Positions 1-60,350 of a stretch of DNA of 64,000 bases are shown one piece after another; within the stretch, counting starts at the first letter, position 1, and every line of letters begins with the position of its first letter. Under the pieces are notes generated by a model. It saw only the letters and a program-made list of their open reading frames with translations, did no database searches and was not told the DNA's origin. This DNA is from Aldrovandia affinis (Eukaryota > Chordata > Actinopteri > Notacanthiformes > Halosauridae). Where the stretch lies: positions 1,778,383 to 1,842,382 of the forward strand of contig JAINUG010000130.1 in NCBI GenBank assembly GCA_029706075.1. Direction: 5' to 3'. The position numbers and the translations under genes were made by a program.

Positions 1-3000
1 GGTGGATTCAAGATGCCTAAGATGAAGATGCCCAAATTTGGGCTTAAGGGTCCTAAAATTGAAGGTCCAGATATTGATGTCAATTTACCAAAAGCTGACA
101 TTGACATCAAAAGTCCTCAAATAGAAGTTGATGTACCAGACATTGATTTGCAGGGACCTGAAGGAACAATCAAAAGTCCCAAATTCAAAATGCCCCAAAT
201 ATCTGGGCCAAAGTTCTCATTGCCAGATGTGGACTTTAATCTGAAGGGACCGAAACTAAAAGGGGATGTCAAAATTCCAAAGGTTGAGGGTGAAATCAGT
301 GTGCCAAAGGTTGATCTTAAAGGTCCTTCAGTAGAAGGACCAGATGTTGACATTGAAGGTCCAGAAGGTGGATTCAAGATGCCTAAAATCAAAATGCCCT
401 CATTTGGATTCAAGGGTCCTAAAGTGGAGGGTCCAGATGTTGATTTGAACCTTCCAAAGCAGACATTGACCTAAAAGGACCCAAGGTTGATATTAAAGGG
501 CCAGAACTTGACATTGAAGGACCTGATGGTACCTGAGCCAAAATTCAAGATTGAATCTGGACCAAGATCTCAATGCCAGAGGTCTGAAGGGACCAAACTA
601 AAAGGGATGTCCGAAATTCAAAGGATGGTGAAAATCTCAAAAATGGTCCAAAGGCCCTCATGGAAGGACCAGATGTTGACATTGAAGGTCCAGAAGGTGG
701 ATTCAAGATGCCTAAAATCAAAATGATTTGGATTCAAGGGTCCTAAAGTGGAGGGTCCAGATGTTGATTTAAACCTACCGAAAGCTGACATTGGATCAAA
801 GGACCCAAAGTTGATATTGAAGGGCCAGAACTTGACATTGAAGGACCTGATGGTAAAATTAAGGGGCCAAAATTCAAGATGCCATCCATATCTGGACCGA
901 AGATCTCAATGCCAGATGTGGACTTCAATCTGAAGGACCAAAACTAAAGGGGGATGTCACAATTCCAAAGGTTGAGGGTGAAATCAGTGTGCCAAAGGTT
1001 GATCTTAAAGGCCCTTCAGTGGAAGGACCAGATGTTGACATTGAAGGTCCAGAAGGTGGATTCAAGATGCCTAAAATCAAAATGCCCTCATTTGGATTCA
1101 AGGGTCCTAAAGTGGAGGGTCCAGATGTTGATGTGAATCTTCCAAAAGCTGACATTGAAATCAAAGGACCTAAAATTGATATTGATATTGAAGGACCAGA
1201 ACTTGAAATCTGGAATCAAATCTCAATGCCAGATGTGGACTTCAATCTGAAGGGACCAAAACTGTTGATGTCAAATTCCAAAGGTTGAGTTGAAATCAGT
1301 GTCAAAAGTCTTTGAACCAGATATTGACATTGAAGGACCTGAAGGACAAGATGCCTAAGTTTAGTGGAGGGCCTGAAATGACCTGGGGCCATCTTTGACA
1401 TCATGTCAAAGGGCCAAAATTCAAAGTCCTGACTGTAATCTGAAGGATAAGATCTCAACCTGAAAGGTGATGTGGACATGTCAGTGCCAAAGATTGAAGG
1501 TAAAATCAAAGGCCAAAAGTTAATATTCATGGGCCTGATGTGGATGTGAAGAGTCCTGAAGGAGGATTTAAAATGCCAAAATTCAAGTTGCCTAAGTTTG
1601 GATTTAAAGGTCATAAAGTTGAGGGTCCACATGTTGCCAAAATCTAAATCCAAAAGATCTCAACATTGATATCTGAAACCCCATCTAAAAGGGAGATGTG
1701 GACGTTTCTGTGCCAAAAATTGAGGGTGAAATCAAAGCACCAAAGGTCGACATTGGAGGTCCAGAAATAGGCATTGAAGGTACAGAAGGTGGTTTCAAGA
1801 TGCCCAAAATCAAAATGCCAACAATATCAGGTCCCAAGATTAAAATGCCAGATTTTGACCTCAAAGTGAAAGGGTCTAAAGCAGAAGGTGAAGCTTCCAA
1901 AGGCTGACAAATCAGACATCAAAGGACCAGATGTTGAGACCAGAACTTGACATTGAAGGTCCAGAAGGTGGATTCAAGATGCCTAAAATCAAAATGCCCT
2001 CATTTGGATTCAAGGGTCCTAAAGTGGAGGGTCCAGATGTTGATTTAAATCTTGACATTTCAAAGGACCTAAAGTTGATATTGAAGGGCTAGAACTTGAC
2101 ATTGAAGGACCTGAAGGTAAAATCAAAGGTCCAAAATTCAAGATGCCATCAATATCTGGGCCAAAGATCTCATGCCTGATGTGGACTTTCAATCTGAAGG
2201 GACCGAAACTAAAGGATGTCACAATTCCAAAAGGTTGAGGGTGAAATCAGTGTGCCAGGTTGATCTTAAAGGCCCTTCATGGAAGGACCAGATATTGACA
2301 TTGAAGGTCCAGAAGGTGGATTCAAGATGCCTAAAATCAAAATGCCCTCATTTGGATTCAAAGGTCCTAAATGAGGGTCCAGATGTTGATTTGAATAAAG
2401 CTGACATGTTGATCCAAAGCTTGATATTCAAAGGGGGGAACTTTGAAATGCCTGATGATTGAAGGCCATGTGGACCTGAACATTGGACAAAATCAAAGGT
2501 CCAAAAGTTAATATTCAAGATGCCTGATGTGGATCTCTGGTCCTAACATCAAAATCCAAAATTTAGTTTGGAAAAAGGTCAAAGTTGAGGGTCCAATGTT
2601 GATTTAAACATTCCAAAAATTGGACCCCATCTGAGATGGACCAGAATAAAAGTAGCCTGATCAGAAATGACATTGAAGGACCTGAGGTGGAAATTTAAGG
2701 GATGCAAATTTCAAATGCCATCAATATCAGGTCCCAAGATTAAAATGCCAGGAGATTTTGACCTGACCAAAATAAAGAGGGCCCTAACCCAGTGCCAAGA
2801 TGACCTCAAAGGCCCACAAATAGACATCGAAGGTCCAGATGTTGAGCTGGAAGGACCAGAAGGTGGATTCAAGATGCCAAAGATGAAAATGCCCTCATTT
2901 AACCTCAGAGGTCCCAAAGGCCCTGATGTTGACATTTCAGGTGACTTTGAAGGACCAGATGTTGAGATTGAGGGACCAGAGGGGAAGATCAAAGGTCCTA

Positions 3001-4015
3001 AGTTTAAGATGCCATCAATATCTGGGCCTAACATTAGCATGCCTGATGTGGACTTTCACCTTAAGGGCCCAAGGATGGGGGGTGACATCAAAGGGCCATC
3101 GGTTGATATTGAAGGACCTGATATGAACATTGAAGGTCCAGAAGGTGGATTGAAAATGCCCAAGTTCAGAATGCCCAAGTTTGGAGGGAAAGGTCCTAAG
3201 ATTGAGGGCCCAGACATCGACATCTCTGGTCCAAAGCTTGAGGGGGATATTGAAATGCCAGATGTTGAAATTGAGGGACCTGAAGGCAAAATCAAAGGTC
3301 CTAAGTTCAAGATGCCATCTATCTCTGGTCCTAACATCAAAATGCCAGAATTTAGTCTCAAAGGTCCAAAAATAGAAGGTGACCTAAAAGTTGACATGGA
3401 TGCTCCAGACCTAAACCTTGAGAGCCCTGATCTAAACATTGAAGGACCTGGAGGAAATGCTAAGGATTCAAATTTAAAATGCCAAAGATATCATGGGCCT
3501 GATGTGGATGTGAAGAGCCTAAGTTTGATTTAAAGGTCATAAAGTTGAGGGTCCACATGTTGATCTAAACATTCCAAAAGCTGACATTGATATCAAACCC
3601 CATCTCAAGGGAGAGGACGTTTCTGTGCCAAAAATTGAGGGTGAAATCAAAGCACCAAAGGTAGACATTGAGGTCCAGAAATTCATATCAGGGCCTAACA
3701 TCAACATGCCCACTTTTGACCTGAAAAGGACCCAAAGTAGAGGGTGGCATAAAGGGACCCAGTGTAGATCTTGAAGTTCCTGATGTTAACATTGAAGGCC
3801 CAGATGTTGACTTGGAAGGACCAGAAGGTGGATTCAAGATGCCAAAGATTAAGATGCCCAAATTTAACCTCAAAGGTCCCAAAATTGAAGGTCCTGATGT
3901 TGACATTTCAGGTGACTTTGAAGGACCAGATGTTGAGATTGAGGACCAGAGGGAAGATCAAAGGCCCTAAGTTTAAGATGCCATCAATATCTGGGCCTAA
4001 CATTAGCATGCGGAC
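1..4015 (+). CDS. ahnak: AHNAK repeat domain, upstream part with the frame broken by many small indels
   Basis: The same repeat protein continues to the left edge of the window, so the gene is 5'-incomplete. Frame 1 is open from base 1 to 474. After that the AHNAK-type peptide hops between all three frames, for example 748 on (frame 1), 989-1288 (frame 2), 1698-1907 (frame 3), 2172-2462 and the longer 2667-3533 (288 residues, frame 3). The breaks look like 1- to few-base losses, often in short homopolymers: CCAAAGC at 456 where sister units read CCAAAAGC, and ATGCGGAC at 4008 where the next unit reads ATGCCGGAC. Codon sense and repeat motifs are kept between breaks, and the downstream 4.7 kb is clean. 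This fits poor consensus or a collapsed tandem array better than an inactivated gene, though true decay cannot be excluded from one sequence. Segment boundaries are approximate. Confidence 0.8.
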
Positions 4016-7000
4016 ATGGACTTTCACCTTAAGGGCCCAAAGATAGGGGGTGACATCAAAGGGCCATCGGTTGATATTGAAGGACCTGATATGAATATTG
4101 AAGGTCCAGAAGGTGGATTTAAGATGCCAAAATTCAAAATGCCTAAGTTTGGAGGGAAAGGTGCTAAGATTGAGGGCCCAGACATCGACATCTCTGGTCC
4201 AAAGCTTGAGGGGGACATTGAAATGCCAGATGTTGAAATTGAGGGACCTGAAGGCAAAATCAAAGGTCCTAAGTTCAAGATGCCATCTATCTCTGGTCCT
4301 AACATCAAAATGCCAGAATTTAGTCTCAAAGGTCCAAAAATAGAAGGTGACCTAAAAGTAGACATGGATGCCCCAGATCTAAACCTTGAGAGCCCTGATC
4401 TAAACATTGAAGGACCTGGAGGAAATGCTAAGGGATTCAAATTTAAAATGCCAAAGATATCAGGGCCTAACATCAACATGCCCACTTTTGACCTGAAAGG
4501 ACCCAAAGTAGAGGGTGGCATAAAGGGACCCAGTGTAGATCTTGAAGTTCCTGATGTTAACATTGAAGGCCCAGATGTTGACTTGGAAGGACCAGAAGGT
4601 GGATTCAAGATGCCAAAGATTAAGATGCCCAAATTTAACCTCAAAGGTCCCAAAATTGAAGGTCCTGATGTTGACATTTCAGGTGACTTTGAAGGACCAG
4701 ATGTTGAGATTGAGGGACCAGAGGGGAAGATCAAAGGCCCTAAGTTTAAGATGCCATCAATATCTGGGCCTAACATTAGCATGCCGGACATGGACTTTCA
4801 CCTTAAGGGCCCAAAGATAGGGGGTGACATCAAAGGGCCATCGGTTGATATTGAAGGACCTGATATGAATATTGAAGGTCCAGAAGGTGGATTTAAGATG
4901 CCAAAATTCAAAATGCCTAAGTTTGGAGGGAAAGGTGCTAAGATTGAGGGCCCAGACATCGACATCTCTGGTCCAAAGCTTGAGGGGGATATTGAAATGC
5001 CAGATGTTGAAATTGAGGGACCTGAAGGCAAAATCAAAGGTCCTAAATTCAAGATGCCATCTATCTCTGGTCCTAACATCAAAATGCCAGAATTTAGTCT
5101 CAAAGGTCCAAAAATAGAAGGTGACCTAAAAGGACCGAAAGTAGACATGGATGCTCCAGACCTAAACCTTGAGAGCCCTGATCTAAACATTGAAGGACCT
5201 GGAGGAAATGTTAAGGGACTCAAATTTAAAATGCCAAAGATATCAGGGCCTAACATAAAGATGCCCACTTTTGACCTGAAAGGACCCAAAGTAGAGGGTG
5301 ACATAAAGGGACCCAGTGTAGATCTTGAAGTTCCTGATGTTAACATTGAAGGCCCAGATGTTGACATCAAAGGTGATGCCAAACTGAAGATGCCTAAAAT
5401 ATCAGGACCGAAGATCGATATTGACAGTCCCAGTTTCCACATGGATAAGCCGGAGATACATTTCCCAAAATTCAAAGGACCCAAGTTTGGAATGAAATCC
5501 CCCAAAATAGAAGGACCAGAAGTGAAGCTTCCTTCTGGGGAGCTTAATCTGAAAGGGCCAGATCTTGAGGTTAAGGCACCCAGTGCTGACATTGACTTCA
5601 AAGCTCCTGGTGTCAACATAGAAGAACCAGATGCAAGTATAAAAATGCCTAAAATCAAGATGCCAAAATTCCACCTGGGCGGCAAGAGCCCCAAAGCAGA
5701 TGTCAAACTACCTGAAGCTGACCTCAATCTTGAAAGCCCTGATCTGGATATTAATTTAAAAGGGAAGAAAGGCAAGCTTAAAATGCCAAAAATGAAAGGG
5801 AAGTTAAAAAAGCCTGACGTCAACATTGATGTGAATTCACCTGATATAAATTTGGAAGTTGACTCACCTGAGCTTCACCTGAAAGGACCCAAGGTAAAGA
5901 AGCCATTATTTGGGAAGCTACATTTTCCTGATGTTGAGTTTGACATGAAATCCCCAAAGGTTAAGGGCGGTGGCTCCCTGTCTGGCACTTTGGAAACTTC
6001 TGATATGGATTTGCCTTCTGCTAGCCTCAAAGCAGATCTAAAAGGTTCAGATGTTGACCTTCCAGACATCAATGTGGAAGGCCCAGATGTAAAAATGAAA
6101 AAACCCAAAATGAAAATGCCCAAGTTCAATATCTCTGGTCCAAAACTTAAGACCCCTGACTTTGATCTGAAGGGTCCACAGATCGATGCCCCTGATGTGG
6201 ATGCCAGCTTGGATGTGTCAGGTATGGACATTGAAGGTCCAGATGTTAAAGGAAAACTCAAGCTTAGTGGACCTGATGTTAACATTGAGGGACCCGAAGG
6301 AAAGATACAGGGCCCAGGGTTCAAGATGCCTTCCCTGAACATCAAGGCACCAAAGATTTCTGCCCCTGATTTCAATATAAAGGGGCCTAAGATCAAGGGT
6401 GGCACAGATCTCTCTTGTGATTTGAAGGGACCAGAGGTTAACATGGAAGTCCCTGACATAGACATAAATGGACCTGAAGGAAATCTGAAGGGCCCAGGAT
6501 TCAAGATGCCTTCCCTGGATATTAAAGCACCTAAAATGCCTGAATTCAATTTGAAGGGACCCAAAATCAAGGGAGACTTTGATGTTTCAGGGGACATAGA
6601 TGGGCCCAATGTAGACTTAGAAGGACCAGAGGGGAAAATAAAAGGTCCAGGTTTGAAGATGCCATCGCTGAACATCAAAGCACCTAAGATAACAATACCG
6701 GACATTGATTTAAACCTTAAAGGAGCCAATGTTAAGGGAGACATGGATATTTCAGGTGGAATAAAGGGCCCCAATGTTGATCTGGAAGGTCCCGCTGTAG
6801 ATATTGAAGGTCCTGATGGAAAGATTAAAGGTCCATCTTTCAAGATTCCATCTTTTGATATTAAAGCTCCTAAGATTACTGCCCCTGACTTCAGTTTGAG
6901 GGGACCCAAAATCAAAAGTGACATTGACATTTCAGGAGACATGAAAGGTCCCAGGGCAGATATTGAGGGGCCAGATGTAGACATTGAAGGGCCAGATGGA

Positions 7001-8764
7001 AAAATCAAGGGCCCTGGTTTCAAGATACCTTCTCTTGATATAAAAGCACCAAAAATCTCTCTTCCTGATGTTGATTTCAACCTCAAAGGACAAATGAGCA
7101 AGGGGGATATGGATCTCTCTGGAGACGCAAACTTTGAGGGTCCAGATGTTGACATTGAAGGAGCTGGTGGTGGAATAAAAATGCCCAAAATAAAAATGCC
7201 AAAGATTGGATTTAAAGGTCCTCACATTCAAGGCTCAGACATGGATATGACCCTCCCCAAAGCTGACATTGATGTCAAAGGCCCAAAAGTTGACATTAAA
7301 GGTCCAGAGCTTGAAATTGAAGGCCCAGATGGCAATCTCAAGGGACCCAAATTCAGTATGCCATCCATATCTGGTCCTAAGATCTCACTGCCAGATTTGG
7401 AATTCAATGTAAAAGGGCCAAACGTGAAGGGAGATGCGGATGTTGACATCAAAGGTCCAAAAGTGGACATTAAAGGACCAGAACTAGATGTGGAAGGACC
7501 AGAGGGTGGAATAAAAATGCCTCAAATAAAAATGCCCAAATTTGGTTTTAAAAGTTCTAAAATAGAGAGTCCAGAAATTGACCTGTCAGGTCCAACCATT
7601 GAAGGCCAAATTAGAGGGCCAAAAGGTGACATAAAAGGCCCTAGTGTCGATATCAAGACACCCGAACTTGATTTGGAAGCACCAGAATTAAAAGGGAAGA
7701 AGTCCAAATTTAAGTTTCCAAAGTTTAGTTTTGGCAGCCCAAAACTGGACGGTGCAGACACAGATATCAACATGAAAGGCTCAACACTCAGTGGCAGCCT
7801 TGACACTTCAGGACGTGAGATGTCTGGAGACTTGAAAGGGCCCAGTCTGAAAGTAGATGCTCCAGAGGTGATTCTGAAAGGGCCAAAGGTCACGACTGGA
7901 GGGCTGAACATCAAAGGAGGGGCAGATGTGGACGCAGAAGTATCAGGTGGAATGGAATACCCAGAGGGCAAGGTCAGCTTTCCTAAGATCAAAGTACCTA
8001 AGTTTGGCATTGCCTTGCCCCACTTGGAAGGTCCTGAGATGGGGGTAGATGTTGGCTCAGGAGGGGCATCTGGCAGAGGGGAGATAAACATACAAAGCCC
8101 TTCAGCAAGTGGCGGAATCAGCTCCCAGAGCCTTGAAATACATGGCCCTGAGATAAAGACCAGTGGTGGTGCAAAGACTAAAGTAAAGATGCCCAAATTA
8201 TTTGGCAAGTCAAAAAGCAAGGGAGGCAGTGCATCTGATCTGAGCCTTCAGAGGCCACAGATGGAAATGTCTGACAGCGGAGCAAGTGTGAAAGGCTCCA
8301 AAGGACTGAGCATGAGCTCTGGAGAACTGCTTAGTGGCAAGATTGAAGGAGGTTCTGGATTCAGTGTGTCACCTAAGAGCAAGTCTGCCTCACTAGATCT
8401 GTTCAAGAAATCACGACATCGCTCCTCCTCACTGAGTGATGAGGGGGGTCTAGCCTCCTCCTCCTCCCCGTCTGGCCACTTAAAAGCTGAGGGTGGGGAC
8501 ATCTCACTGGATGCAGGGGGTGTCAAAGTCAAGGGTAAAAAGGGAAAGCTGAAGTTTGGCACATTTGGTGGCTTTGGCTCCAAGTCCAAAGGCTCCTATG
8601 AAGTGACACTCGGTGAAGAAGGTGAAGCAAGAGTAGAGGGAAGTGGAGGTGTTTCTCTCCCATCGAAGAAGTCCAGGATTTCCTCATCCTCCAGCAGCGA
8701 TAGTGGAGCTAGGGGGGGCTTCCGATTCCCACGCGTCGAATTATCTGTGTCACCTAAAAAATAA
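4016..8764 (+). CDS. ahnak: AHNAK (desmoyokin), C-terminal part of the giant repeat exon
   Basis: Uninterrupted 1582-residue reading frame ending at TAA 8762-8764. AHNAK is a giant scaffold protein acting at the plasma membrane and cytoskeleton; it binds the S100A10/annexin A2 complex and calcium-channel subunits (family knowledge). Residues 1 to about 1300 are degenerate beta-strand-like repeats built on the motifs KGPK, FKMP, SISGP, DVDIEGPEG and LKGPKIEG. Residues from about 1330 on are non-repetitive and basic/serine-rich: a KKSRHR block with an SSSLSDE stretch near 1460, a GKKGKLKFGTFGG block near 1506, and a terminus ending VELSVSPKK. These tail blocks match the conserved vertebrate AHNAK C-terminus, which favours AHNAK over periaxin or AHNAK2. 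The ATG at 4016 is only the first Met after a frameshift, not a start: one C is missing at 4010-4012 compared with the homologous unit at 4783-4787, and the coding sequence continues upstream. No intron is seen, as expected for this single huge exon. Confidence 0.93.
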   Translation: MDFHLKGPKIGGDIKGPSVDIEGPDMNIEGPEGGFKMPKFKMPKFGGKGAKIEGPDIDISGPKLEGDIEMPDVEIEGPEGKIKGPKFKMPSISGPNIKMPEFSLKGPKIEGDLKVDMDAPDLNLESPDLNIEGPGGNAKGFKFKMPKISGPNINMPTFDLKGPKVEGGIKGPSVDLEVPDVNIEGPDVDLEGPEGGFKMPKIKMPKFNLKGPKIEGPDVDISGDFEGPDVEIEGPEGKIKGPKFKMPSISGPNISMPDMDFHLKGPKIGGDIKGPSVDIEGPDMNIEGPEGGFKMPKFKMPKFGGKGAKIEGPDIDISGPKLEGDIEMPDVEIEGPEGKIKGPKFKMPSISGPNIKMPEFSLKGPKIEGDLKGPKVDMDAPDLNLESPDLNIEGPGGNVKGLKFKMPKISGPNIKMPTFDLKGPKVEGDIKGPSVDLEVPDVNIEGPDVDIKGDAKLKMPKISGPKIDIDSPSFHMDKPEIHFPKFKGPKFGMKSPKIEGPEVKLPSGELNLKGPDLEVKAPSADIDFKAPGVNIEEPDASIKMPKIKMPKFHLGGKSPKADVKLPEADLNLESPDLDINLKGKKGKLKMPKMKGKLKKPDVNIDVNSPDINLEVDSPELHLKGPKVKKPLFGKLHFPDVEFDMKSPKVKGGGSLSGTLETSDMDLPSASLKADLKGSDVDLPDINVEGPDVKMKKPKMKMPKFNISGPKLKTPDFDLKGPQIDAPDVDASLDVSGMDIEGPDVKGKLKLSGPDVNIEGPEGKIQGPGFKMPSLNIKAPKISAPDFNIKGPKIKGGTDLSCDLKGPEVNMEVPDIDINGPEGNLKGPGFKMPSLDIKAPKMPEFNLKGPKIKGDFDVSGDIDGPNVDLEGPEGKIKGPGLKMPSLNIKAPKITIPDIDLNLKGANVKGDMDISGGIKGPNVDLEGPAVDIEGPDGKIKGPSFKIPSFDIKAPKITAPDFSLRGPKIKSDIDISGDMKGPRADIEGPDVDIEGPDGKIKGPGFKIPSLDIKAPKISLPDVDFNLKGQMSKGDMDLSGDANFEGPDVDIEGAGGGIKMPKIKMPKIGFKGPHIQGSDMDMTLPKADIDVKGPKVDIKGPELEIEGPDGNLKGPKFSMPSISGPKISLPDLEFNVKGPNVKGDADVDIKGPKVDIKGPELDVEGPEGGIKMPQIKMPKFGFKSSKIESPEIDLSGPTIEGQIRGPKGDIKGPSVDIKTPELDLEAPELKGKKSKFKFPKFSFGSPKLDGADTDINMKGSTLSGSLDTSGREMSGDLKGPSLKVDAPEVILKGPKVTTGGLNIKGGADVDAEVSGGMEYPEGKVSFPKIKVPKFGIALPHLEGPEMGVDVGSGGASGRGEINIQSPSASGGISSQSLEIHGPEIKTSGGAKTKVKMPKLFGKSKSKGGSASDLSLQRPQMEMSDSGASVKGSKGLSMSSGELLSGKIEGGSGFSVSPKSKSASLDLFKKSRHRSSSLSDEGGLASSSSPSGHLKAEGGDISLDAGGVKVKGKKGKLKFGTFGGFGSKSKGSYEVTLGEEGEARVEGSGGVSLPSKKSRISSSSSSDSGARGGFRFPRVELSVSPKK

Positions 8765-10480
8765 TGCAATATAGCCCTTGTCTCTGATCCTCTCTCACAT
8801 GACCACCCCCCCCACTCCCAACAAAAATATATTTTATCCACCCTTAGTTTCCTCCCCATCTCCATTAACCAAGCCCCAACACTACCATCTCTAATTTTAA
8901 GTTGGGCTTGAAAAAATCTTGAGGCTGATTTTCAAAACTTTTATCTCCAGTACTACACTTATATGCACTGTTACAGAAATGCTCACGATAGCAGAGTACA
9001 TGTCTATTCCCTTTCAATTCTCCCCCAAATATTTACCTTAACTAATCACACTGAAGTAAGTTTTGTAGTTTTGAAAATCAACCTTAAACTGTAAATAAGA
9101 CATGATTCAGTTTTGTATTTTTAAAACTTTTTTTTTTTGTACATAATTATATTATTGGACATATCCCATTTCACTCTTTTTCCTCCCTCCCTACACACAC
9201 AGTGCCTTAAGTACAAATGTCCAGAGTAAAAAAACATTTCTTTGCATTTTGTTTCAATACTATTTTCAAAATGATATTGGGTGTGCTATTTTTGTATCTT
9301 TAAAATGTAATAAAAAAACAGAGGTATGTATCACAAAGAACAATGTTATGGTTGAAATTGTTCTTTCTAAGGATGTGTGTCTTTATATACACACATACAT
9401 ATAAATGCAGAGCAACATCACTTTTTTGTTATATATAAACAAATGATTTATTTGCCTTTATTCTGGAGCTTAAACAATATAACCTATGCTGCAAAATTAT
9501 ACTTCCTGTAGAGCTCATTTTTACATTTTCTATTACGAGTAACAATGCTGGTAGTGACCATAATTGCAATGAGAATCAATGTTGTATGTTTGTACAAACT
9601 AATGAACTGCTGTTAGGACATCAGTTGCACTAGAATACTGCCACATGTCAGAACTGATAGCTGCTTTATAAAACAATGACTCATGGTTTAGCTCAAGGAA
9701 AGCAAACATGAACGGAATGGAAAACGCATAGCAAAAGTGGACACTACTAGTCTACTACTAAAACCAAACTATGGCAGTGTTCTAGTGTGACACCAATGTG
9801 GCGCTAATGGTCATTTGTATTATATAAAGTTAATGTTTTGTCTTTTATAATGTGTCACGAGGAAAAAAAGTACATATACAAAATGAATACAGCTTTTTCT
9901 AATATGGGTTTGAATGCACAGCAAATTATAGGTCCCATGATCTCTAAACTATTATATACTTAGAGACTTGTTCTTTAATGTCTACTGAGGAATCGTACAA
10001 GGTGATGAAATGCAGCCTTAAAGCTTTGTGGCCTGAATTGCATTTCCTTAGCTGGAGTTTGAACTGTTGTTTTGAGGGCTGATCTACAACTGCACTACTA
10101 TTCCCTCCAAACCTGCACCTGCCCTGTGGTGAATCTCACTCTGTCTCTCTCTCTCTCTCTCAATGAAAAGCTGTGGTGGTGTTTGGTAGTGAGGGTATAG
10201 GAAAGTGTTATCTGTCCTGAATATCAGGAATATGGTAAGAAGCTGTGCTGTAATGCCACTTGTATGTAGAATTACTTTTTATGATGCTCCTTGCAAGTCG
10301 CTGCTTACACTTTTGGGGAAACATATGCATCAGTTGATTTTCCTCATTTTCTGGTAACAACTAACCCATTTGATTTAGAGACATTGGGATTTGTAAATGT
10401 TTTTTGTTTGTGTCTTGCATTTTTTCTTTGTTAAATGATTCATCTATAAAGCAAACTACAAATAAACTGTTCAATTAACC
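8765..10480 (+). other. ahnak: AHNAK 3' UTR
   Basis: AT-rich, ORF-free sequence directly after the AHNAK stop. Possible polyadenylation signals AATAAA lie at 9309-9314 and 10461-10466; the second is followed by a short T/GT-rich stretch and is taken as the main 3' end. A TC-rich microsatellite lies at 10141-10161. The UTR extent is inferred from the signals, not observed. Confidence 0.6.
10461..10466 (+). terminator. Probable distal polyadenylation signal of ahnak
   Basis: Canonical AATAAA about 1.7 kb after the stop codon; the nearest later AATAAA hexamers belong to LINE-like sequence. An earlier hexamer at 9309-9314 could give a shorter UTR. Confidence 0.5.
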
Positions 10481-11669: not shown

Positions 11670-12190
11670 ATGAGCATAAAAAGTATTCACCCCCATTTGG
11701 CATTTTTCACATTTTCTTACTTCATGGAATCAGAACGGATTTAATGGCGATTTCTTGCCACTGACCAACACAAAATACTCTATAATGAAAAAAACCTCAA
11801 GCTTTTTCTTAATTGATTACAAATAAAAAACAGACAATAATTGATTCCAAAAGTATTCACCCCCTTGACTTAATACTTGATAGAAGCACCTTCTGCAAAA
11901 GAGTCTATTTGGGCAAGTCGTTACCAGCTTTGCACATCTGGACACTGCAATTTTCACCTATTCATCTTTACAAAATTGGTTGATCAGGTTGGATGGGGAC
12001 CTTACCTATTGGCGCTTACCTTGCCCTCTAAGGATGAGTGGACCCAAACCATACCAGGAAAATGCACCCCACGCCATAACAGAGCTGCCAGAATCCTTCA
12101 CCATTGGAAACAAGCAGTCGAGCCTGTAGGTTTCTGGTGCCCTATAAATATAAAGTCATAGAATGTTCATCAGGCATTTGTGAAAATTCT
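11670..12190 (-). mobile_element. Tc1/mariner relic (antisense)
   Basis: AAAGTATTCACCCCC appears twice, at about 11679 and 11851. It is followed by antisense Tc1 text: a TTGATAGAAGCACCTTCTGC block, GCACATCTGGACAC and GGTTGGATGGGGACCTTACC, which are recurrent in the 5' half of fish Tc1 elements read on the minus strand. No open transposase remains. The doubled terminal motif suggests the direct repeats inside an IR/DR-type terminus. Confidence 0.6.
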
Positions 12191-12738
12191 ATCCATATGA
12201 CTGGGTGGCAAAAGGACAGTGAGTACGAGACAGAACTCTTCCCAGTGTAGCCACCCTCAGCCAGCCATGTAGCTGGCTACTAGCAAGAAAAACCCAAAAC
12301 AACTTGTGTTGAAAAGTAATAACGGTAGTACCACCGGTTTTAATATCCAGGACATCCGCATCTCCATCCCGCATTTGCCCATCAGTCCTAGGTATCGTTC
12401 ATAACAATCTGTGGTGAAATACTCACTACTGATATAAGTTATGTGTGTTTCGGATCTCTCACCAACCACTTAGCTACTCCTGGTGCGTTGCACCCATTTT
12501 CCCCACGTTTTCCTTCTTGTCTCGTTATTGACGGGGAACCTGTGGGCACTTATATTTCCCTCTTCTTTACTTGCCACATTAGAGTAGCCAGCCACCATAC
12601 ATCTACACACCATTTTAATAGAGAGAGGACATGTGGGAAAAGTACTATCTTGTATTGGCTCCTGTTAGCTTTCTCCTCAGCGAATGCCCGACTGTAGGCT
12701 TCATCATGGGAAAAGTAGAACCCAAAAAATACTGTTTT
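12191..12738. other. Unassigned noncoding stretch
   Basis: Contains TAGCCACC/CAGCCAGCCA and ATGTAGCTGGCTACTAGC motifs with a related GAGTAGCCAGCCACCAT at 12584, hinting at a degenerate inverted-repeat element. The boundaries are not clear enough to name it. Confidence 0.3.
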
Positions 12739-13299
12739 AATGTTTTTTGGTGACTTTTTCATATTTCACAAACATTATGGCCACTTTGTTTAATTTCTGC
12801 AAAGTTGTTACTGGTGTGTTAGATGCCCTTTAAACTAGAACCATAGCATTCTTTAATTTCTAGACCATTAATATTTTAAATGAGTAATAAATCCATTGTT
12901 AACATTTTAAAAGAACTATTTAGTTCAGTTTAAGAAATGTGATCTAAATGACTTTGACCGTCTAATGATTAGGTGTGAGTATCTCAGAAACTGCTGATTT
13001 CATAATGTTTTTTGGTGACTTTTTCATATTTCACAAACATTATGGCCACTTTGTTTAATTTCTGCAAAGTTGTTACTGGTGTGTTAGATGCCCTTTAAAC
13101 TAGAACCATAGCATTCTGACACCTACGTCTTATGGGGCAGAGCAGCCACTTAGACCATTAATATTTTAAATGAGTAATAAATCCATTCCGTATATAACAT
13201 TTTAAAAAGAACTATTTAGTTCAGTTTAAGAAATGTGATCTAAATGACTTTGACCGTCTAATGATTAGGTGTGAGTATCTCAGAAACTGCTGATTTCAT
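12739..13299. repeat. Tandem duplication of the Tc1 5' end
   Basis: Copy 1 (12739-13003) and copy 2 (13004-13299) share the sequence from AATGTTTTTTGGTGACTT to ACTGCTGATTTCAT. Copy 2 differs by about 30 extra bases around 13117-13152 and a small change near 13188. Neither copy is simply derived from the other by point change, so the duplication is not very recent or reflects recombination between two elements. Confidence 0.9.
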
Positions 13300-13972
13300 G
13301 GGATTTTCACGCACAACAGTCTCTAGTTTACAGAGAATGGTGCGAAAAACAAAAAACACCCAGTGAGCGACAGTTCTGTTTGCAAAAACACCTTGTTAAT
13401 GAGAGACGTCAGAGGAGAATGGCCAGACTGGTTCAAGCTGACAGGAAGGTGACAGTAACTCAAATAACCACATGTTACAACAGTGGTATGCAGAAGAGCA
13501 TCTCAGGGCTGATGGCCCAGCGGTCTAGTGCACAACATGTTTCTCAGAACCTTGAAGTAGATGGCTGTCCGCTCCGGGGGAGGGGGAGGGAGAGCCAGCA
13601 CGAGTCCGCCGAGGAGCAGGTTAATGGACCGTGGAAGATCTCCGTCTCGAAAGAAGGGTTCCTCTCCTGTCATTGGCTAAATTGGGAAAACGGGAAGGAA
13701 AGCATCTCTGAGGCTAGATGGGCTGGCATAAGACCACAGGCTCAGCTAAAAACAGGAAAGAACTGGACAGTTGAAGACAGTTGAAGATTGGAAGAACGTT
13801 ACCTGGTCTGACTAATCTTGATTTCTGCTGCAACATGCAGATGGTAGGGCCAGAATTTGGTATAAACAACATGAATCAATGCATCCATTCTGCCTTCAGG
13901 TTCAGGCTGCTGGTGGTGGTGTAATGGTGTGGGGAATGTTTTCTTGGCACACATTAGGCCCCTTAATGCCAA

Positions 13973-14398
13973 TTGAGCATTGTTTTAAATGCCACAGCCT
14001 GTCTGAGTCTTGTTGCTGATCATGTGCATACCTTTATGCCCACAGTCTACCCATCTTTTAATGGCTACTTCCAGCAGGATAGTGTGCCATGTCACAAAGC
14101 ACACGTCATCTCAAGCTGGTTCCAAGAACATGACAATGAGTACAGTGTCCTCCAATGGCCTCCGCAGTCACCAGATCGCAGTCCAATAGAGCACCTTTGG
14201 GATGTGGTGGAACAGGAGATTCACAACATGAATGTGCAGCCGACAAATCTGCAGCAACTGCATAATGCTATCATGTCAACATGGACCAGAATCTCTGTTT
14301 CCAGCAACTTGTTGAATCCATGCCACAAAGAATTCAGGCTGTTCTGGGGGCAAAGGGGGGTCCTACCCAGTACTAGAAAGGTGTACCTAAAAAAGTAG
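13973..14398 (+). pseudogene. Tc1 transposase C-terminal half
   Basis: 141-residue open stretch carrying the second catalytic Asp (FQQD) and the Glu (SPIEHLW) of the DDE/D nuclease, ending about 10 bp before the terminal repeat. The N-terminal DNA-binding half upstream contains stops and frameshifts, so no functional transposase is encoded. It should not be annotated as a host gene. Confidence 0.85.
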
Positions 14399-16741: not shown

Positions 16742-16974
16742 GGCAGTGTAGTATAGTGGTTAGGGAGCTGGGCTTGTAACTCAGAGGTTGCTGGTTCAAT
16801 TCCCAGGTGGGGCACTGCCGTTGTACCCTTGAGCAAGGTACTTAACCTGAATTGCTTCAGTAAATATCCAGCTGTATAAATGGATTGTATGTAAAAGAAA
16901 TGTAAACTGTGTAAGTCGCTCTGGATAAGAGCGTCTGCTAAATGCCTAAAATGTAAAATGTAATGTAAATGTAA
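16742..16974 (+). mobile_element. tRNA-derived SINE with L2-type 3' tail
   Basis: tRNA-like head GGCAGTGTAGTATAGTGG with B box GGTTCAATTCC at 16793-16803, body, then the hairpin tail GTCGCTCTGGATAAGAGCGT and CTGCTAAATGCC, ending in TGTAAATGTAA-type repeats. The shared tail implies mobilisation by an L2/UnaL2-type LINE (family knowledge). Confidence 0.9.
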
Positions 16975-17815: not shown

Positions 17816-18340
17816 TACATTTACATTACATTTTAAGCATTTAGCAGACGCTCTTATCCAGAGCGACTTACAAGATGTGCATTAATATATAGTAAGATCA
17901 ATCATAGTCCGTGCAAGAGATCAGTATCGTAATACAGTAATAGACATAATTGTTGGCAGTTGCATACCGTACCTGTAACACAGGGAAGGAAAAGTTTGAG
18001 ATTATTATTATTTATTTAAAAAAAAATCTTGGACAGTCATCAACATAGATACATATTACAAAATGCAGTATTAAACATGAAAGCAGCGGTCATGACAATT
18101 AGTCAAAATTGTCAAACTGAGTCAGTGGTAGTGAAGTCTGAAGAGATGAGTTTTCAGTCTCTTGCAGAAGATGGCCAGTGATTTCACGGCCCTGACCGAG
18201 TGTGGAAGATCATTCCACCACGGGTGGGGGTCAGGGCAGAGAAGAGGCGAGCCCACGAGGAGCGGCTGCCGGGTGCCCAAAGGGATGGGACAGTCAGTTT
18301 GCCAGAGGAGGCGGAGCGGAGGGGTCTGGCTGGGGTGTAG
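17816..18340 (-). mobile_element. L2-type LINE 3' end (ORF2 C-terminus and 3' UTR)
   Basis: On the minus strand about 18330-18122 encodes an ORF2 tail: PWWNDLPHSVRAVKSLAIF, then CKRLKTHLF and a stop. This is the usual LINE C-terminus (W-N-x-L-P, S-L, F-K-x-x-L-K-T-H-L-F). It is followed by 3' UTR and the hairpin tail (reverse complement of CATTTAGCAGACGCTCTTAT, 17838-17857). 5'-truncated. Confidence 0.85.
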
Positions 18341-34367: not shown

Positions 34368-34737
34368 TTTCCCCTTGTTTTTCTCCCAATTTAGTGGCCG
34401 ATTATACCGTCTATTTATTTCGATTTGCCCTCCCCACACAAACCCGCCGCTCGTCTCTACGAGGCAAGCTAATTCTCTGAGGGCAGCGAACTCCGCTTCC
34501 TTCAAGATGGAATTCGCCCACTCACGTTCTGGAGACACCCTTATGCGCTTCTCAGCGAGTTCATGCCAGCTCACCCATCCCCCTTTCCACAGCCAAACGG
34601 CGCCCCCCAATTGGGACTGCCCACCGGGACCGGTCTGGCACAGTCGGGTTTCGAACCGCAACGGTGATAGGCAACTCACACTCGTAAAGGACCGGTCAAT
34701 ACGCGTGCGTAAGGTCGCTACCCTATCAGAGGACCCT
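34368..34737 (-). mobile_element. tRNA-derived SINE, minus orientation, with 11-bp target duplication
   Basis: T-rich start (minus-strand poly-A) at the left, body TCTCCCAATTTAGTGGCCGA, and inverted B box GGTTTCGAACC at 34647-34657. Direct repeats CCCTACTATTT at 34357-34367 and 34738-34748 flank it. Same family as 47193-47511. Confidence 0.85.
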
Positions 34738-42429: not shown

Positions 42430-42505
42430 ATACATTTACATTTACATTTTAGGCATTTAGCAGACGCTCTTATCCAGAGCGACTTACATAGTTTACACGT
42501 TACAC
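42430..42505 (-). mobile_element. L2/SINE 3' tail fragment
   Basis: TACATTTACATTTTAGGCAT, then TTAGCAGACGCTCTTATCCA and GAGCGACTTACATAGTTTAC: the reverse complement of the hairpin tail shared by the SINE at 16.7 kb and the L2 LINEs. Confidence 0.85.
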
Positions 42506-47192: not shown

Positions 47193-47511
47193 TCTTTTTT
47201 TAATAAATGTTGTTTCAGATTTTTTCTCCCAATTTAGTAGCCAATTATACCGTCTATTTATTTCGTTTTGCCTTCCCCACACAAACTCGCTGTCCGTCTC
47301 TACAAGACAAGCTAATTCTCAGAGGGCAGTGAATGCTTCCTTCGAGAGAGAATTTGCCCACCCACATTCTGGAGACACCCATACGTGGTTCTCAGCGAGT
47401 TCATGCCAGCTCACCCTCCCCCCTTCCCCTGGGGCGGACAGCCAAATGCAGCCTCCGATCGGGGCAGTCGGATTTCGAACCGCAGGCGTGATACATAGCT
47501 CACACTTGTAA
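47193..47511 (-). mobile_element. tRNA-derived SINE with 17-bp target duplication
   Basis: Minus orientation: T-rich left end (TTCTTTTTTT) and inverted B box GATTTCGAACC at 47471-47481 near the right end. The direct repeat ACTTAACTGAGTTTCTT is perfect at 47176-47192 and 47512-47528. Same family as 34368-34737. Confidence 0.92.
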
Positions 47512-47528
47512 ACTTAACTGAGTTTCTT

Positions 47529-50108: not shown

Positions 50109-50639
50109 CCACGAGCTTCAATCTGTTCTGGAAAATGTCCAAATGCTGAAGGGTGGGGTAGTGCCAGATCTCAGTGCGTGTTAAAATGTATTATGGACCG
50201 GGATGTTAACCTGTAGCGCTCAATTAGTTACTGGTAGCACTACTGTCATTTTAGCAATTTGCTGTGAAGGTCGCAAATTTGATTCATGCCTGGACCACGC
50301 TGGTTATATTAACACTATAATAATTATTATTATTTCTCATCCTCTCTTCTCTTTAGGTCTTCTGTGTGAGAATCATTGTGATTGTGGGTGAGTGCTGTAT
50401 CATATTTTTCATATTTAGGTTCATCTGTGATATAATTTTTGAAACAATGGCACACAACGGTACTGGGAAGAAATAGTTGCAGTTGGTAGTCCTTTAGAAC
50501 ATGGGTGGGCAAGGAGAGCCATATGTGTTTCTGGAATTCATGCCAGCTTATGCCCTTGATTATTTAATTAGCACAATTCTTTAAGTGTACATTTTTGCTA
50601 AGTTTCTTGATAAGCTCATGAATGACAGCTGAAGACTTA

Positions 50640-51888
50640 CACTATATGGCCAAAAGTCATTGGACACCCCTACTAATTATTGAGTTCAGGTGTTTCAGCC
50701 GCACCCATTGCCAACAGGTGCATAAAATCCAGCACATAGCCATGCAATCTCCACAGACAAACATTTAGAATTCAGAATGGTTCGTGAAGAGCTCAGTGAC
50801 TTTAAACGCGGCACTGTCATAGGATGCCACCTTTGCCACAAGTCAGTTCATGGCATTTCTGCCCTACTAAATGTGCCCCAGTCAACTCTAAGTGCTATTA
50901 TTGTGAAGTGGAAGCGCCTAGGAGCAACAACAGCTCGGCCACAAAGTGGTAGACCACGCAAACTCATAGAGCGGGGCCGACGAGTGCTGAAGTGCATAGC
51001 GCATAAAAATTGCCTATCATCTGCTGCATCACTTACTATAGAGTACCAAACTGCCTCTGGAAGCACCATCAGCACAAGAACTGTGCGTTGGGAGCTTCAT
51101 GGAATGGGTTTCCATGGCCGAGCAGCTGCACACAAGCCTCACATCACCATGCGCAATGCCAAGCGTCGGCTGGAGTGGTGTAAAGCACGCCGCAACTGGA
51201 TTCTGGAGCAGTGGAAACGTGTTCTTTGGAGTGATGAATCACGCTTCACTATCTGGCAGTCTGATGGATGAATCTGGGTTTGGCGGATGCCAGGAGAACG
51301 CTACCTTCCGGAATGCATAGTACCTACTGTAAAGTTTGGTGGAGGAGGGATAATGGTCTTGGGCTGTTTCTCAGGGTTTGGGATAGGCCCCTTAGTTCCA
51401 GTGAAGGGTATTCTTAATGCTACAGAATACGAAGACATCTTAGCCAATTGGGCACTTCTAACTTTGTGGCAACAGTTTGGGGAAGGCCCTTTGCTGTTCC
51501 AGCATGACTGTGCCCCTGTGCACAAAGCGAGGTCCATAAAGACATGGTTAGACGAGTTTGGTGTGGAGGAACTCGATTGGCCTGCACAGAGACCTGACCT
51601 CAACCCCATTGAACACCTTTGGGAGGAATTAGAATGCCGATTGCGAGCCAGGCCTTCTCATCCAACATCAGTGCTTGACCTCACAGATGCTCTTTTGGCT
51701 GAATGGGCACAAATTCCCACAGACACACTCCAAAATCTTGTGGAAAGCCTTCCCAGAAGAGTGGCAACTGTCATAGCCGCAAAGGGGGGTCCAACTCCAT
51801 ATGAATGCCCATGGTTTTAGAATGGGATGTCCAACAAGCTCATATAGGTGTGATGGTCAGGTGTCCACTGACTTTTGGCCATATAGTG
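50640..51888 (+). mobile_element. Complete Tc1 element (1249 bp) with near-intact transposase
   Basis: Terminal inverted repeats CACTATATGGCCAAAAGTCA (50640) and, inverted, the same 20 bases ending at 51888, extending a further TTGGACACC / GTGGACACC with one mismatch. TA flanks are at 50638-50639 and 51889-51890. Full-length for Tc1. It encodes one transposase frame broken by a single stop (see next entry). Confidence 0.95.
50777..51820 (+). pseudogene. Tc1 transposase, full length, one in-frame stop (DD34E)
   Basis: 348 codons including the terminal stop, the normal Tc1 length. Residues 1-110 are the paired-like double HTH, with the GRPRK hook at 58-62. The catalytic domain has D153 (in WSDESRF), D244 (in FQHDCAP) and E279 (in NPIEHLW): 90 residues between the Asps and 34 between D244 and E279, the classic DD34E layout. 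A GGG motif is at 188-190. The only break is TGA at codon 165 (51269-51271), right after QSDG, and both sides lie in the same frame. Family members usually have Arg here, so a CGA-to-TGA CpG change is the simplest origin (inference). No other stop or frameshift. Transposition cuts and inserts at TA. As read, only an N-terminal 164-residue product could be made. Confidence 0.93.
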
Positions 51889-52050
51889 TATCTTGTGTCC
51901 CTATGTGAAACATTATACTGTGGTCTATTATATGAACTGGCATTGGTATTTACAGTGAATTAGCTAATTGAGCCATGGGAATTGGTGGCAATAAAACCTG
52001 CATAAGCAGCCATCCTGGACCAGTTGGAGTTGCCCACCCCTGCTTTAGAT

Positions 52051-53002
52051 ATAGTCATAGACAAGGTATGCCATGCTTTTGACCTATCTTATGGGTACTG
52101 TTTGAATTTTGTTTGAATGAAGAGATTCACTGTAGACAGATTCTCTTTTGCCTTTGGTTGCTGTGCAAACCAAATTCCACAGTACTGGCCTGTGGACCTT
52201 TATAAATAATGTTCAATTATTCATATATTTAATATATATAGATGTATATATATAAGTACATTAAATATTTTATTTAATGTAAAAAGAAATTACAATTGTG
52301 AGCATTTATAAATGTATCCAAGTGTTATTCACAGAAAATATCTCATGTATCTTTCTGATGATATTAATATAGAAGGAGAAACAATTGTCCTCTGTTTTAC
52401 TGTACTTGCCTCTTGATTCTATGCAGAGAACAGATTTCTTTTGTAACCTTTGAGTTGTTTTGTCATGTGGAGCTTTGGGCCATATCCAAGCACTTCACAC
52501 CTGTGGTCTAAAACACTATATAAATTTTACCGTACAATTTCCTTGTCGGTCTTCAAAACATTACCAAATATAGCCTATTGACCCCAATAAAAGACCTCAT
52601 CAGCCAGTTCAGCCAGATTATATACACAAGTCATTTTCCCATAAATATCTTCTTTGCCCCCTTGACCTCAAAAGAAAGTGTTTACTATCTAAGGCAAGAG
52701 GACATTTTGTATTTCCAAGGCCAAAGCATATTTTTCTGACACGGTCAGGGACAAAAGTCAAGGTATAGCATTGTCCCTAGCATTGGAAGTGCCCTATATC
52801 TCAGAGAGACACAATATGTGAAGCCTTAAATCCACCTGTAATGAGCTTTGTCCTTACATACAGGTACTAGTTACGATTTTAAGCCAGTGTCACCTTCCTC
52901 CATCCCTTATACAATATTATGAATTCCATTACTGAAATCTTGCTTAAATTCATCACAGTTAAGGACAAACAGTGTGTTGTGCCTACATTAAACATTAATT
53001 AA
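52051..53002. other. Noncoding, no gene identified
   Basis: AT-rich sequence with TATA-type runs at 52220-52260; no ORF of note. Confidence 0.4.
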
Positions 53003-53867
53003 CCGGTAACTGCCCAAATAAAGGAAACAGCCACATAAAGTCTCTTAATAGGGCATTGGGCCACCACAAGCCATCAGAACAGATTCAATGCACCTTGGCA
53101 TAGCTTCTAAAATTGTCTGTGACTCTATTAGAGGGATGCAACACCATTCTTCAATGAGAAATTCTATAATTTGGTGTTTTGTTGATGGTGGTGGAAAACG
53201 CTGTCTCAGGCAGTGCTCCAGAATCTCCCATAAGTGTTCAATTGGATTTAGATCTGGTGATTGAGATGGCCATAACATATGGTTTATATCATTCTCATGC
53301 TCATCAAACCATTCGGTGATTGCTCGTACCCTGTGGACAGGGGCATTGCCATTCTGGAAGAGACCACTCCAACCAGGATAGTAATGCTTCACCATAGGAT
53401 GAAGTTGTTGATGGACTATTGATGAATCTGCTCATGCCCTAGATTGATATGTTCAGTCAACTGATTCAGAGTTACTCATCTGTTTTTGCCTTGCATCTTC
53501 AACCAATGCATGGACATCATGGTCAAAGAGTATGCACTTTTGATCACTGTCTTTCCCTCAAACTTCCATGCCAACATCACCTTAGCCACTGTTCCTCATT
53601 AAACATCAGCTAGTTGAGCAGTCTTCATCACTGAAGCTCCTGCCAAACGTACCCCCACAATCACCCCTCTTTCAACGTCACTGAGATCTCTTCTAGCCAT
53701 GGTAAACATAATAATGGGCAGTTGGGCCTGCCCAGCATTTTTATACATAACCCTAAGGATGTTAATTCATTATTAATTCATAACCATATCTGTGTGGAAG
53801 CACCTGCTTTCAATATACTTTGTATCCCTCATTTACTTGTGTTTCCTTTATTTTGGCAGTTACCTGT
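53003..53867 (-). mobile_element. Tc1/mariner element, internally deleted, both ends present
   Basis: Left CCGGTAACTGCCCAAATAAA (53003) followed by GGAAAC, and inverted right end CAGGTAACTGCCAAAATAAA (ending about 53866). About 865 bp. It carries an N-terminal start and a C-terminal block of transposase on the minus strand with the middle deleted. A TA-rich microsatellite follows at 53868-53935. Confidence 0.88.
53045..53395 (-). pseudogene. Tc1 transposase C-terminal block, catalytic Asp lost
   Basis: 116 residues. Motif NGNAPVHR (family DDNAPVH) shows the catalytic Asp changed to Gly. It is followed by [15 protein letters not shown] with 36 residues between that position and the Glu, and ends with MACGGPMPY. 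The spacing places it with the DD36E-type group. Upstream on the minus strand, 53598-53700 is the N-terminal start (MARRDLSDVERG) running into a stop after about 33 codons. Inactive. Confidence 0.85.
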
Positions 53868-59600: not shown

Positions 59601-60284
59601 GCATTATGCACATTCCCTTTTCTTCTGGCCTATCAATCAGTTTTGTTCTTGTTTTGTAAAAATGGGGCCCTACGGCCTCTCAATATATTACATACATGAA
59701 ACAACGGCCCAGTTGGTAACATCCCTTCCTTGCCATGCAGGTTAACCAGCTGTGGAGAGGCGGAGCAACAAGATCCAAACAGGAGTTTGTTTGTACACTC
59801 ACTTCCACGTTTATTTACTCATCATACATGGCAAGAAAATAGATGTGCATACACTTGCTGGTGTCACTAATGTTAATAATGGAATTTCCTATACATGGGT
59901 TCTCCATTCATACTCTACACCCTTCACGTAGGGCAAGTGTGCTAACATAATGCCATTACGTATAATGATACCTATTCCAAGTGAAAGTATAATACAAATA
60001 GATTTTTATAACCCCCGAACCCCCTTCCCTCCGATTGCCAATATACAGTATAAGTATAACTAGGGTAACTTAGCTTAACTATCTCTAAGCACCCTGGGTG
60101 GGAAGTGGGATGTGTAGCATTTTGTTGGGTTCCAAAAACAAGCAGGCTGTATTTGGGATATTCTAGAAAGTGGTGACACATCTGATGCACAGCAGTAGTT
60201 AGCAAAACATTTGCATTTGATGCATATTCATTCGAGTGATGTGAATATAATACAAACGTCCTTTATGCACAACACTTTGTTGTA
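56660..60284. other. Noncoding, repeat-poor; possible conserved blocks
   Basis: No gene recognised. 56850-57110 and 58600-58800 are balanced in composition (TCAATTAGCGTGCAGTCGCC, CTCTTATGCAAAAGACAC at 58706-58742). A SINE-like stretch with CAGTGGGTTTGGGAACTGG and GGGCCACAGGTTGGG lies at 57630-57715. The minus frame 57348-57707 (119 aa) shows no domain. Confidence 0.35.
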
Positions 60285-60350
60285 CGTCGCTCTGGATAAG
60301 AGCGTCTGCCAAATGCCTGTAATGTACTGTAATGTAATGCAGTGTAACAC
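60285..60350 (+). mobile_element. L2/SINE 3' tail fragment
   Basis: GTCGCTCTGGATAAGAGCGT, then CTGCCAAATGCCTGTAATGT and a TGTAATG-type repeat. Solo tail with no recognisable head. Confidence 0.85.

Follow-up and report, generated by a model that had tools for sequence, protein, structure and literature searches.

Tc1-like elements are typically about 1.3 kb long and encode about 350 residues, according to the available part of PMC4683633. The same source describes Thm3 of silver carp, which encodes 335 residues, occurs in three to five copies and was experimentally shown to mediate insertion. In the Sleeping Beauty (SB) and ZB elements, long ends are the rule, and 94% of the intact elements were given ends of 180–300 bp in the accessible text of PMC9777934. 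The portion of PMC3516227 at hand treats the 'Group 1' Tc1 of lampreys and teleosts, for which 6,604 copies were counted in lamprey. Most lamprey Tc1 copies were 2–2.5% from the consensus, their frames were mostly broken and Ka/Ks was mostly near one; the authors inferred that the spread had ended or was strongly reduced.

The locus analyzed here lies in a 64-kb stretch of Aldrovandia affinis DNA (hereafter the window), in which positions 50640–51888 are a full-length 1,249-bp Tc1-like (DD34E) transposon copy with TA on both sides. This copy is very probably a fossil of a Tc1-like DD34E family that went through a past burst and has decayed neutrally since, and in which a stop at codon 165 recurred. 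The terminal inverted repeats were 29 bp in length with one mismatch between left and right. Including TA, the inverted arms (31 bp each, 50638–50668 versus 51860–51890) were 97% complementary. The end-to-end match had an E-value of 2.5e-7 (BLAST, element against the 64-kb window), which indicated that the inverted ends did not arise by chance within the window. The features of the locus were as follows.

50500–52042, no strand: probable hAT-like non-autonomous element holding the Tc1 copy, 292 bp without it, judged from ends and flanks
50638–50639, no strand: TA target-site duplication, left
50640–50668, plus strand: left terminal inverted repeat of 29 bp that differs from the right one by a single mismatch
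50640–51888, plus strand: full-length Tc1-like (DD34E) copy, 1,249 bp
50777–51271, plus strand: transposase frame part 1, 164 codons and stop, with helix-turn-helix domains and D153
51269–51271, plus strand: early in-frame stop at codon 165, on one of the family's CpG sites; 7 of 44 copies have it
51272–51820, plus strand: transposase frame part 2, carrying D244 and E279 and ending at the stop 51818–51820
51860–51888, minus strand: right terminal inverted repeat, 29 bp
51889–51890, no strand: TA target-site duplication, right

The transposase frame opened at the ATG at 50777, and its sole internal in-frame stop was the TGA at codon 165 (51269–51271). The residues D153, D244, and E279 were present with a spacing of 90 and 34 residues (DD34E), and we take their numbering to be identical to that of SB. 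The Tc1 structure described in the sequence-only reading (TA flanks, matching termini, full-length frame, and the three catalytic residues) was thus confirmed, and its coordinates were exact. The two halves of the transposase matched the Pfam families HTH_Tnp_Tc3_2 (1.4e-14) and DDE_3 (1.8e-8), and HTH_SB was matched at E = 5.6e-9 with 36.1 bits, the curated cut-off being 43 bits. The second half aligned with the Sleeping Beauty catalytic domain (PDB 5cr4) at E = 5.7e-38, and for the first half no PDB chain matched at 0.001. By the Pfam and PDB comparisons, both halves belong to a transposase of the Tc1 type, and the SB catalytic domain was the one solved structure matched.

In this Tc1 family, the frame comprises 342 codons and the family stop is codon 343. 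The window copy, alone among 44 copies, had lost that stop (51803–51805), and its frame extended to a stop at codon 348. Of its 342 positions, 23 deviated from the most frequent residue (22 replacements plus the codon-165 stop), against 11–25 in the other copies. The TGA at 51269 had been called the only break, which was right inside the window; measured against the family, however, the stop at codon 343 was gone as well and the 23 positions were off the commonest residue. Because of the 22 further replaced residues and the lost family stop, the description "one stop codon away" flatters this copy and understates its decay.

The Tc1 copy is probably nested within another repeat. The ends of the surrounding element were CATGGGTGGGCAA and CAGGGGTGGGCAA (read inward), its flanks were CTTTAGAA and CTTTAGAT, and these 8-bp flanks agreed at 7 of 8 positions. 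We presume that the repeat is hAT-like, given 8-bp duplications as in hAT-like elements. Its left part was matched at 56 of 66 bases, from 4 bases inside the left edge, by positions 9935–10000 of another fetched stretch (L045), where the match ended together with the stretch itself.

No second full copy of the family was found in the 64-kb window, and the other Tc1-like pieces there showed a protein likeness of 21–60% to the transposase of the element. Another Tc1-like family was represented by a shortened minus-strand element at 53002–53867. Its inverted ends were 28 bp long (93%), and its frame, which is broken, was 45.7% like the window transposase over 105 residues. Relics of additional Tc1-like transposases were found at 12033–14398, and positions 12738–13299 formed a near-tandem duplication (88.6% over 297 aligned columns). 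UnaL2 LINE 3′ ends scored above the Rfam threshold at 16898–16951, 17831–17883, 42447–42500, and 60269–60322, and a dispersed repeat was present at 34378–34688 and 47221–47512 (79% identity). The beginning of the window (1–8764) contained long repetitive open frames, presumably of the AHNAK type, the longest at 4007–8764. Stops interrupted the parts before the longest frame, which may reflect decay there, splicing or an error of the assembly. By themselves, this frame and the four LINE ends would suggest a vertebrate, perhaps a fish.

A genome-wide count was made with a 40-base internal segment of the family. It matched 1,359 places (665 + 694) in the 1.22-Gb genome at no more than 3 mismatches, and the backward control of the segment gave 0 matches. 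A search with the whole element returned 2,119 first-look candidates, and the best 40 were scored. Each of these best 40 of 2,119 covered the element completely or lacked at most two bases, and identity to the window copy was 95–96% in the remaining 39; being the best-scored, the set is biased to near, young copies. A second search was seeded with L005, whose mean distance to the other copies was the smallest. It recovered 36 of those 40 plus four that were new, and no copy was nearer to L005 than 97%. With these four added to the 40, 44 nearest copies were read, the window copy included. In 38 of the 44, both flanks carried TA; these comprise 36 strict cases plus L021 and L036, the alignments of which stop one base short. 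When the flanks were compared (up to 150 bp per side), two short matches only were observed between different loci, which indicated that the copies are separate insertions.

Six further copies were sampled by place, as the first listed beyond those already read that matched the 40-base segment exactly. Four of them were near full length, and the other two, which matched over 442 and 518 bp only, were excluded from the divergence figures. Twenty 10-kb stretches at chosen places on 8 contigs (L045–L064) contained matches to family DNA of only 50–54 bp; 0.22 copies were expected there from 1,359 in 1.22 Gb. Tc1-like coding relics (E up to 1e-4) were carried by 12 of the 20 stretches, so old Tc1 families are abundant in this genome.

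The pairwise K2P distances among the nearest 40 copies (780 pairs) had a mean of 0.0417, a minimum of 0.0255 and a maximum of 0.0561. The tree of these copies was star-shaped: good support was obtained for 1 of 37 inner branches from all sites, and for 0 of 37 once CpG sites were removed. In the 40 copies, CpG sites showed 0.131 changes per site and copy versus 0.0141 at other sites, a ninefold excess. Outside CpG sites, the four near-full place-sampled copies were 1.4–2.3% from the per-column majority, and the change across the copies read was about 0.7–2.3%. The nearest 40 probably represent the younger end of the family. At the neutral rates usually assumed for fish, such non-CpG divergence corresponds to some millions of years, not to present activity.

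The frame was regarded as open if the start was present, no stop occurred before codon 343 and there was no frameshift. An open 342-codon frame was found in 6 of the 44 copies; four keep the catalytic triad and two are without a catalytic residue. The intact sisters anticipated in the sequence-only reading do exist elsewhere in the genome in this form. The number of frame lesions per copy was 0 in 6 copies, 1 in 13, 2 in 16, 3 in 7, 4 in 1, and 5 in 1. To be exactly one lesion away from an open frame is therefore common in this family (13 of 44). For the neutral expectation, the changes of each copy were redistributed at random within base and CpG class. Stop-free frames with a start, indels ignored, numbered 11 of 40 against 7.1 expected (binomial P about 0.085), and with frameshifts also counted 6 of 40 were open. 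The replacement and silent changes were 770:184, compared with 759:195 when shuffled within the same classes, a ratio of 1.07. Selection holding the frames open was not supported by this ratio. The excess of stop-free frames is small and not significant, and weak selection or some younger copies might lie behind it. Since the stop-free count was near the neutral expectation and the replacement ratio was neutral, the open copies can mostly be explained as lucky survivors, plus a small, unexplained, non-significant excess.

Three explanations other than decay after a past burst were weighed. The first is that the family is still active, with open sisters producing transposase now and the window copy mobile in trans. 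The four open frames with a complete triad, the slight excess of stop-free frames and the intact ends are consistent with it, as is the number of places, about 50 of the 1,359 having been read. However, even the most similar two of the 40 nearest copies were 2.6% apart, the search from L005 brought no copy above 97% to that seed, and replacement changes accumulated at the neutral ratio. A family still at work is accordingly improbable, and there was no sign of its present activity among the copies read. The sequence-only reading had taken the nearly open frame as a mark of recent activity, and this was not supported: besides the distances just given, stop-free frames were near the neutral number and a single lesion was an ordinary state. 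As to near-identical copies, which would point to activity, no pair below 2.5% was seen among the 40 nearest; there is a slim chance that a small, very young, active lineage survives among the roughly 1,300 other places. If so, the host would carry a naturally active short-ended Tc1.

The second explanation concerns the stop at codon 165, which may have been inherited: a defective source copy carrying it would have been multiplied in trans and so have founded a subfamily. The stop occurred in 7 of the 40 nearest copies, in 0 of the 4 further near copies and in 0 of the 4 usable place-sampled copies; L068 and L069 were excluded from this count (L069 is partial and has non-element letters there), and the usable total was 48 (44 + 4). 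A stop common to the entire family was ruled out by these numbers (7 of 44 near copies, 0 of 4 place-sampled). The sequence-only reading had named highly diverged sisters together with a family-wide stop as the marks of an old element amplified as a defective unit; the nearest copies were 95–96% identical instead, and the stop was confined to the seven.

Three weak signs, taken together, point to inheritance within a subfamily. On the tree built from all sites, codon 165 included, five of the seven stop copies clustered weakly. The AU test of a single clade gave p = 0.071, by which a single origin is not formally rejected, and the stop copies shared slightly more minor letters than random sets did (2.00 versus 1.47, P = 0.105). 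In contrast, on the CpG-free tree with codon 165 left out, the seven copies needed six changes; shuffled labels needed 6.5 on average, and 190 of 500 shuffles were equally low. At 53 of 80 CpG sites, versus 5 of 1,169 other sites, four or more of the 40 copies had a minor letter. Because codon 165 lies at a CpG site and so many CpG sites are similarly variable, the frequency of the stop is usual for such a site. The stop was therefore most likely produced by recurrent CpG decay; a subfamily that inherited it was not favored, and we consider it quite unlikely. The third explanation, read-through of the frame or its domestication as a host gene, is scarcely credible: the frame has two open halves and an intact triad, but replacement changes run at the neutral rate across copies, 23 of 342 positions are off the commonest residue, and the element retains its ends and TA while nested in another repeat.

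A past burst followed by neutral decay would proceed as follows. By analogy with the Tc1/mariner superfamily, the transposase would bind the inverted ends, excise the element and join it to TA, which is duplicated. The family probably expanded in a single burst that started from a restricted set of source copies, and the window copy would have inserted within the hAT-like repeat. After insertion, the copies would have decayed without selection, quickest at CpG sites, where methylation may lie behind the excess of changes. The codon-165 stop would be one such decay event, the same codon having been struck separately in other copies, and the burst itself appears to be over. The window copy is nothing out of the ordinary for a decayed Tc1 from a past burst of middling size, and it matters little alone. 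A stop at a CpG site can recur in many copies and the stop-free count was near neutral; thus a frame one stop from open should not be taken as a sign of recent activity, and the copy is an example against such a reading. The burst, dated by about 0.7–2.3% of non-CpG change, provides a marker in the repeat history of the host.

Of the features of Tc1 (DD34E) elements within Tc1/mariner, the window copy shows the TA target-site duplication (also in the 38 of 44 copies mentioned above), terminal inverted repeats (29 bp, one mismatch) and a single transposase of ~340 residues with helix-turn-helix and DDE parts and D-90-D-34-E spacing. Dispersed copies with TA flanks were observed, and cut-and-paste transposition of the family is suggested by its kinship with Tc1/mariner. 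Compared with SB and ZB, the element has the DD34E triad, the TA target and a catalytic half that aligned to 5cr4 in common. However, its ends are 29 bp, whereas theirs are 180–300 bp (available part of PMC9777934), and HTH_SB stayed under the Pfam cut-off. Since the long ends of the Sleeping Beauty type (about 180–300 bp) are missing and the arms measure 31 bp including TA, the element was not filed in that family. A literature search for its terminal sequence found no paper containing that sequence. In virus contigs, 3 pattern matches to relatives were obtained and 0 were confirmed, and phage records gave no match. Thm3 is, by its description in the accessible portion of PMC4683633, likewise a fish Tc1-like element with a TA target; it differs in its few copies and in insertion by experiment, whereas the window element is known from sequence only. 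The nearest published description among those consulted is that of the 'Group 1' Tc1 in the available text of PMC3516227. Likened by description, they share with this family many copies, broken frames, a near-neutral replacement ratio and a past spread, and they differ in number, with 6,604 lamprey copies versus the 1,359 places counted here with one 40-base segment.
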